The translations under genes and the position numbers were made by a program. A stretch of 64,000 bases of DNA from Fodinibius saliphilus (GTDB lineage Bacteria > Bacteroidota > Rhodothermia > Balneolales > Balneolaceae), in contig NZ_VAWF01000003.1 of the NCBI RefSeq assembly GCF_005869845.1, positions 372,001 to 436,000 on the forward strand, read 5' to 3'. This document shows positions 59,741 through 60,781 of this stretch, in pieces. The notes below the pieces were generated by a model. That model was not told where the DNA came from. It did no database searches and saw only the letters and a list, made by a program, of their open reading frames with translations. Within the stretch, counting starts at the first letter, position 1. Every line of letters starts with the position of its first letter.

Positions 59741-60622
59741 TTACAATATCATACTTTCAATAGGAAGGATAACAATACCACTTGCTCCTTCTGCTTTTAA
59801 TTTTTCCATAACAACCCAAAATTCATCAATGGGGATAACGGTATGAATAGCAACCATACCATTATCAGCTAATGGCATTACAGTTGGGCTTTTAAGAGAA
59901 GGAATAATCTCCTTAATCTTGGGTACGGAGTCTTGAGGAGCGTTCATCATAATATAACGACTGCGTTCGGCCTGTTGGTGGCCGTCCATTCGTTGCAGGA
60001 ATTTTTCGATAAGCTTTTTCTTTCCCGGCGATAATTTTTTATTGGTTTGGATGAGTTCTGTTTCTGACTCCAGTATCGTGATCAGTTCTTGCAAACCGTT
60101 GGCTTTAAGCGTGTTGCCGGTTGACACGATATCACAGATAGCATCAGCGACTTCGAGTCGGGGTGCAATTTCAACGGCACCCGATATTGTTACCACATTG
60201 GTGTCTATCCCCTTTTCTTCGAAGAAGTCGCGAGTTAGTTTTGGGTAGCTGGTAGCAATAGTTTTGCCTTCAAAGTCACTTACAGATTGGATATCCCCAT
60301 CTTTGCGGGCAGCTAAAGAAAGGCGACAGACACCATAATCCAATCCTCTAAGTACGGTGACATCCGCACCTTTTTCTTGTGTTTCATTTGCACCTACAAA
60401 TCCGAGGTCACAAACTCCATCTTGAACATATTCGGGAATGTCATCATCTCGAATAAGGAGCAGTTCGACATCAAAATTTCGGCATTTGACCAAGAGATTA
60501 CGTTTGTAATCATCAAATCTGAGTCCAATGCCTTTGAGTAGGTCAATCGTTTTATCGGTTAAACGTCCTGATTTTTGAATAGCAATACGTAGTGAAGTAT
60601 TAGAGTCTGCAGTGCGTTGCAT
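59741..60622 (-). CDS. hisG: ATP phosphoribosyltransferase, long form
   Basis: This 293-residue enzyme catalyses the first, committed step, joining ATP and PRPP. It has the periplasmic-binding-like catalytic domains (LRIAIQKSGRLTDKTIDLL, CDLGFVGANETQEKG) with PRPP loop DAICDIVSTGNTLKANGL. A C-terminal ACT-like regulatory domain follows (about 220-293, PTVMPLADNGMVAIHTVIPI), so histidine feedback control is likely and no HisZ is needed. It is the first structural gene of the operon, 83 bp downstream of the histidine-rich leader ORF. Confidence 0.96.
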   Translation of the reverse strand: MQRTADSNTSLRIAIQKSGRLTDKTIDLLKGIGLRFDDYKRNLLVKCRNFDVELLLIRDDDIPEYVQDGVCDLGFVGANETQEKGADVTVLRGLDYGVCRLSLAARKDGDIQSVSDFEGKTIATSYPKLTRDFFEEKGIDTNVVTISGAVEIAPRLEVADAICDIVSTGNTLKANGLQELITILESETELIQTNKKLSPGKKKLIEKFLQRMDGHQQAERSRYIMMNAPQDSVPKIKEIIPSLKSPTVMPLADNGMVAIHTVIPIDEFWVVMEKLKAEGASGIVILPIESMIL

Positions 60623-60705
60623 AACAATGAGATATAGTAATTTGTTGTTTGGGAAAATACTAAGAATAATAAGAGACGGGGTAGCCTAAGCTACATATAG
60701 AGATG

Positions 60706-60768
60706 CTATCGACGGTGGGAACCGCCGTGATGGAGGTGAGAGTGGATATGGAGTTGTCGTTTTAGCAT
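60706..60768 (-). CDS. hisL: Histidine-rich leader peptide of the his operon
   Basis: A 20-codon ORF, MLKRQLHIHSHLHHGGSHRR, starts at the ATG at 60768 and ends at TAG 60706-60708, 83 bp before hisG on the same strand. Six of 20 residues are His, five of them within eight codons (7, 9, 11, 13, 14). This is what a ribosome-stalling attenuator peptide needs. Around it a 7-bp inverted repeat (60702-60708 with 60763-60769) would pair the start and stop regions. A GGCGGU/ACCGUC hairpin lies in the last codons and a GTAGC/GCTAC hairpin lies at 60681-60694. A clear T-run terminator is not seen, so the mechanism may be translational or Rho-linked. No experimental support is available. Confidence 0.8.
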   Translation of the reverse strand: MLKRQLHIHSHLHHGGSHRR

Positions 60769-60773
60769 CAGGG

Positions 60774-60781
60774 CAAATATA
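60774..60781 (-). promoter_or_regulatory. Possible Bacteroidetes-type -7 box before the his leader
   Basis: TATATTTG on the minus strand fits the TAnnTTTG -7 element, 5 bp before the leader ATG. No good -33 TTG is found at normal spacing. If used, the leader mRNA would be almost leaderless. Confidence 0.35.

Follow-up and report, generated by a model that had tools for sequence, protein, structure and literature searches.

The hisGDCBH operon of Fodinibius saliphilus is preceded by a short open reading frame crowded with histidine codons, which raises the question whether this operon is governed by a leader peptide and, if so, through what output a ribosome on the leader would act on the genes behind it. 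We studied the locus within a window of 64 kb (the whole stretch of DNA analysed) and gathered hisG upstream regions across the Balneolales, reading them oriented on hisG; family f1, which holds the window genus g1, was taken to be Balneolaceae, and the window genome groups with Fodinibius/Aliifodinibius. In the reading developed below, the leader peptide belongs to an attenuator that senses histidine and controls the his operon, with the terminator lost and Rho probably in use; we would give this reading, taken in this form, an even chance.

A histidine-rich leader ORF and its promoter box

59741..60622, minus strand: hisG, first gene of the hisGDCBH operon (TIGR00070, 194.8 bits; TIGR03455)
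60706..60768, minus strand: leader ORF MLKRQLHIHSHLHHGGSHRR, ATG to TAG, 20 codons, probably leaderless
60774..60781, minus strand: promoter box TATATTTG, matching the Bacteroidetes -7 element TAnnTTTG and ending 5 nt before the leader ATG

The leader ORF has His at codons 7, 9, 11, 13, 14 and 18, so that the earlier note was exact in counting six on the minus strand, five of them between codons 7 and 14. Its stop lies 83 nt before the hisG ATG (60622), and the genes hisG, hisD, hisC, hisB and hisH, all assigned by NCBIfam, come after it on that strand. On both strands of the 64 kb only two ORFs of 12-30 aa contain at least six His, where 20 Markov-1 simulations gave 0.1 on average; the second is antisense, inside hisG.

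A His-rich short ORF precedes hisG in 75 of 75 Balneolaceae with a canonical hisG and enough upstream sequence, a count that omits two truncated contigs (G074, G077) and two genomes with divergent hisG (G036, G082); the leader start position in G087 is uncertain. The leader also occurs in further Balneolales families (8 of 11 genomes in f2, 4 of 5 in f3 and the single one in f4), and in f5 only in the two genomes of genus g36 (G123 and G124), the other 12 being without it. In several f5 genomes that lack a His leader, a box resembling a promoter lies a few tens of nt upstream of hisG instead. Across 87 leaders, His accounts for 740 of the 2197 codons after the start (34%; CAT 540, CAC 200), and for 50 and 42 of 2110 codons (∼2%) when the same leaders are read in the shifted frames. 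The peptides are mostly 17-37 aa long, His spacing is not fixed between genera, and the lengths of congener leaders differ by whole codons except in G018, which has an early stop. The earlier note had proposed looking for conserved His codons with synonymous variation, and had named loss of the ORF or of its frame in relatives as what would speak against it; both CAT and CAC are used, and the leader is kept family-wide and in frame. Because it is conserved among relatives, we regard the leader as genuine and not a chance occurrence, and its composition indicates that the His codons are under selection. What defines leader-peptide attenuators in general is present here, namely a conserved short ORF, rich in codons for the regulated amino acid, before the operon for its biosynthesis, and we consider it very probable that translation of this leader senses histidine.

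The box upstream of the leader is equally regular. In 66 of 74 Balneolaceae the leader start follows the end of a TAnnTTTG-type box by 4-5 nt, and the start codons are GTG in 48 and ATG in 26 (n = 74). In B. fragilis this element sits at the -7 region (PMC7366714); transcription would therefore start at or within ∼2 nt of the leader start codon. Such a -7 element immediately before the start codon is the mark of a leaderless ORF, and from its position we think it likely that the Balneolaceae leader mRNA is leaderless. Few mRNAs of this group are leaderless (5.5% in F. psychrophilum; in B. thetaiotaomicron 3.7% have 5' UTRs under 10 nt), and other Bacteroidota His leaders are mostly without a box directly before the start.

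Hairpins around the leader stop codon

60702..60769, minus strand: 7-bp inverted repeat GATGCTA (60763-60769) / TAGCATC (60702-60708), pairing the start region with the stop region
60710..60727, minus strand: hairpin H1 (CGGCGGT/ACCGTCG), inside the ORF, 3' of the main His codons
60681..60694, minus strand: post-stop hairpin (GTAGC/GCTAC), rough positional equivalent of H2 of other genera

The earlier note described a perfect 7-bp repeat between start and stop regions with two further hairpins following it. Both hairpins exist, with the correction that one (60710-60727) lies within the ORF and only the other (60681-60694) after the stop. In the window genus H1 lies just before the stop, and the post-stop hairpin begins ∼11 nt after it. 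Among congeners 93% of cells are paired in each, with two-sided changes at one pair of H1 and at two pairs of the post-stop hairpin (UA/CG; UA/GC/AU). In genera other than that of the window, the last leader codons tend to pair with the RNA just past the stop, leaving the stop codon in the loop (H2), with arms that vary by genus (GUGC/GCAC, ACGC/GCGU, ACGCA/UGCGU, AUGCGC/GCGCAU and others). Taking the best helix per sequence and ignoring tree relatedness in the statistics, H2 scored 6.62, against which swapping partners among genera gave 5.04 ± 0.25 and shuffling gave 4.62 ± 0.21 (0/200 each), and H1, which lies in the His tract, again in genera other than the window's, scored 8.17 versus 6.44 ± 0.31 swapped and 6.20 ± 0.25 shuffled. 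Of the two control regions, the spacer exceeded its swapped versions slightly at best, and the ORF start did not exceed its own.

The compensatory pairing suggested for checking is thus seen in H1 and in the post-stop hairpin/H2, and not in the start/stop repeat. The latter is exact in the window, but only GATGC/GCATY (4-5 bp) is kept in congeners, one pair is unpaired in 10 of 12, and two-sided changes number zero; we rejected it as a conserved switch, and a function for it appears doubtful. A search for mutually exclusive antiterminator and terminator pairing yielded only H1 and H2 as recurrent helices and no alternative partner in the G-poor spacer, and RNAalifold returned no consensus on a 29-genome set of g11, g13 and g17, probably through alignment failure. 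One switch scheme does not fit every genus, because the post-stop hairpin of the window genus need not be melted by a terminating ribosome.

In genus g19 (L075-L077) a ∼12-bp inverted repeat spans the leader end and the spacer (GGGGATTTGTGC / GCGCAAATCCCC in L077).

Absence of a terminator and candidate outputs

60623..60705, minus strand: spacer rich in C and U, poor in G and lacking an intrinsic terminator; candidate site of Rho loading

When scanned for hairpins with a T-tract behind them, canonical-hisG Balneolaceae leaders showed no strong intrinsic terminator (-13 kcal/mol or below), which upholds the earlier remark that the usual T-run terminator is absent. The same scan detected one in 23 of 40 hisG upstream regions sampled elsewhere in the Bacteroidota, further families within the class among them. 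Terminators within the first 450 nt of hisG were scattered, none being common to the genomes. The trp leaders of the window genus have a strong terminator in 12 of 12 cases (-19.4 to -23.8 kcal/mol): these trpE upstream regions of 12 congeners (L159-L170, L167 being the window genome) all encode a trp leader peptide that contains two or three Trp codons, in most cases as WWW, and have a TATnTTCn-like box ∼7 nt before its start codon. No further leaders were evident in the leuA upstream regions.

Of the suggestion that this is an independent or divergent attenuator, the second half stands, the form being divergent and conserved family-wide, while an independent origin is disfavoured by the wide occurrence of terminator-type His leaders in Bacteroidota and near the Ignavibacteria, where two records (L281, L282) show one by inspection. 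In the simplest history the terminator-type leader is probably the ancestral form, and the Balneolaceae leader would be its terminator-less derivative.

What, then, would stop transcription? The C-rich and G-poor character noticed earlier agrees with the measured composition: G makes up 6.9% and C 26.6% of the leader-to-hisG spacer (C/G 3.85, with no genus below 2), versus a C/G of 0.92 in the stretch from leader stop to terminator of relatives that bear a terminator, and of 1.33 upstream of other window genes. The C-over-G value of the window leader is matched by 2.7% of local 206-nt segments, and is hence extreme but within their range. A rho gene was present in 85 of 85 Balneolales genomes examined. 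Spacer composition and rho presence fit Rho-dependent attenuation in the leader, a fit that is only suggestive, and the low G content could simply keep the hisG start unstructured. That Rho is the terminating agent is in our estimate an evenly balanced proposition.

The window genome has two Rho-type ORFs (L283:311-1504 and L284:464-1936, both on the minus strand), a 490-aa rho and a 397-aa paralogue, and nearly every Balneolales genome searched has one strong and one weak Rho_RNA_bind match.

The proposed mechanism would run as follows. A ribosome would load on the 5' AUG or GUG once the RNA emerges, as the box position implies. With ample histidine it would traverse the His codons and depart, melting H1 on its way and, outside the window genus, the stop-codon hairpin H2 as well; Rho could then load on the naked CAY-rich tract and the C-rich, G-poor spacer, and transcription would end ahead of hisG or in its first part. 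When charged tRNA-His runs short, the ribosome would presumably stall in the His tract and cover it, H2 could form, Rho loading would be hindered and the operon would be transcribed. What the sequences show directly is a leader kept among relatives, a promoter box at a near-constant distance from its start, covariation in two hairpins, the lack of a terminator, a biased base composition and rho in every genome examined. The fully specified version, a leaderless, terminator-free and Rho-dependent His attenuator, conserved in the family, derived by terminator loss and having at the stop codon a hairpin that the leader ribosome reads, is tentative and somewhat short of even odds.

A His-sensing leader might instead be switched off by termination or arrest without Rho, through a non-canonical intrinsic terminator or through H2 as a pause site with NusG/NusA. 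The conserved hairpins H1 and H2 near the stop would suit this, as would the T-run that follows H2 in some genera (for example CTTTTTT in G026). Yet H2 has only ∼4-6 bp, the T-runs are inconsistent between genera, trp in the same genus uses a strong terminator, and H2, which holds the stop codon, would be melted by a ribosome that terminates there, the wrong sign for a terminator; we hold this to be unlikely, at about one chance in several.

The earlier note had left control as either translational or Rho-based. Translational attenuation, in which the position of the leader ribosome exposes or hides the hisG start, is a known alternative wiring of leader peptides (PMC9413887) with which the absence of a terminator is compatible. 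It requires that ribosome position alter access to the downstream start, and this was not what the predictions gave: no conserved pairing of the leader or post-stop region with the hisG start was found (mean z ∼0.2-0.3), and the predicted unpaired probability of the hisG start was 0.62 in all three ribosome states, namely a free leader, a leader occupied at its stop codon and a leader occupied at its first His codon. The translational option is consequently without support and rather improbable, and the Rho-based one is retained as the candidate that fits composition and gene content.

Leader translation could also just shield the transcript from RNase or Rho, stabilising it without any sensing of histidine. 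The leader stands immediately 5' and is translatable, and a short upstream ORF has been reported to protect in a comparable way in Salmonella orf34/speF (PMC6386406), but such shielding leaves unexplained a His density of 34% across families while the remaining peptide varies, and we judge it quite improbable. Least credible by far is a functional metal-binding small protein in place of a sensor: His runs could bind metals, but the ORF stands just before hisG in every case examined, is mostly 17-37 aa long with unfixed His spacing, and family f5, mostly without the leader, still keeps hisG.

Relation to known leaders

Leader-peptide attenuation is usually taught with an intrinsic terminator, and the His codons of the enterobacterial hisL form one block of seven. 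The Balneolaceae leader resembles hisL (RF00514 His_leader) in being a short ORF rich in His codons before the his operon, with the same expected sign (stalling turns the operon on); it differs in having scattered His codons, no terminator/antiterminator pair and probably a leaderless mRNA, and the intrinsic terminator with U-run that the classical hisL type has between leader and first gene is absent. Rfam searches gave no His_leader (RF00514) match in the window, at the gathering cut-off or at E<=10, and none above cut-off in the loci of 15 relatives at E<=5, where one weak match was obtained (L151, 27.4 bits; cut-off 49). The distance between His-rich ORF and hisG is similar in the terminator-type His leaders of other Bacteroidota and of the two near-Ignavibacteria records (for example L151, L157, L158, L281, L282); these have a strong intrinsic terminator, and in most of them the leader start has no promoter box immediately in front of it.

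Leader ORFs linked to Rho, tnaC and mgtL being further systems of this kind, sense arginine/ornithine, antibiotics, Trp or Mg2+, and not histidine for a his biosynthetic operon. In Salmonella orf34/speF (PMC6386406) and E. coli toiL/topAI (PMC12121999) the position of the leader ribosome was shown to control Rho-dependent termination, directly or via translation, as is proposed here. The leaderless trpL of Sinorhizobium meliloti (PMC7298713) likewise has its ORF at the 5' end of the transcript, but is a Trp attenuator in another phylum and with another promoter.

Leader-peptide attenuation had been regarded in a 2010 survey as unknown outside Proteobacteria and Actinobacteria, except for the survey's own case in bacilli (PMC2965389), and a 2022 study listed candidate His attenuators with terminator and antiterminator hairpins in some Firmicutes (PMC9413887). 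Within the same broad phylum as the window, the 2021 transcriptome of Flavobacterium psychrophilum gave strong indications that leader peptides attenuate amino-acid operons (PMC9723704), its main text having neither histidine nor a terminator-free or leaderless form among the candidates. Our literature search, with subscription papers, notably Lopatovskaya 2010 (cited in PMC4833913), and supplements outside it, found no description of his leaders in Bacteroidetes/Balneolales; nor did we find a published description of a His leader that is both leaderless and terminator-free, the general kind, leader-peptide attenuation, being already known.

Here a His leader is kept terminator-free across a whole family of another lineage, with the trp leader of the same genomes retaining its terminator; the earlier note drew attention neither to this contrast nor to the probable leaderless start. 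If confirmed, this would mean that the sensor (codons and ribosome) can be connected to another kind of output, and that terminator loss and a switch to Rho could be tested by comparing close relatives. The locus would also provide a small leaderless system for studying how transcription and translation are coupled in bacteria largely without Shine-Dalgarno sequences.

Some relatives depart from the common arrangement. G036 (L109), a member of the Balneolaceae with a divergent hisG (46% identity) and an HHH leader, is the sole case of a strong terminator before hisG in the family; its hisG and attenuator were possibly transferred horizontally together. In the two g36 genomes of f5 (L080 in G124, L081 in G123) the last His codons form the 5' arm of a terminator-like hairpin (CACCACCC...GGGGTGATG), followed in G124 by a T-run, and a stalled ribosome would therefore block this hairpin directly. 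In L277, L279 and L280 no His leader is found, and an ORF recognised by eye as a TrpR/YerC-like helix-turn-helix protein, recalling the HisR repressor, lies directly upstream of hisG.
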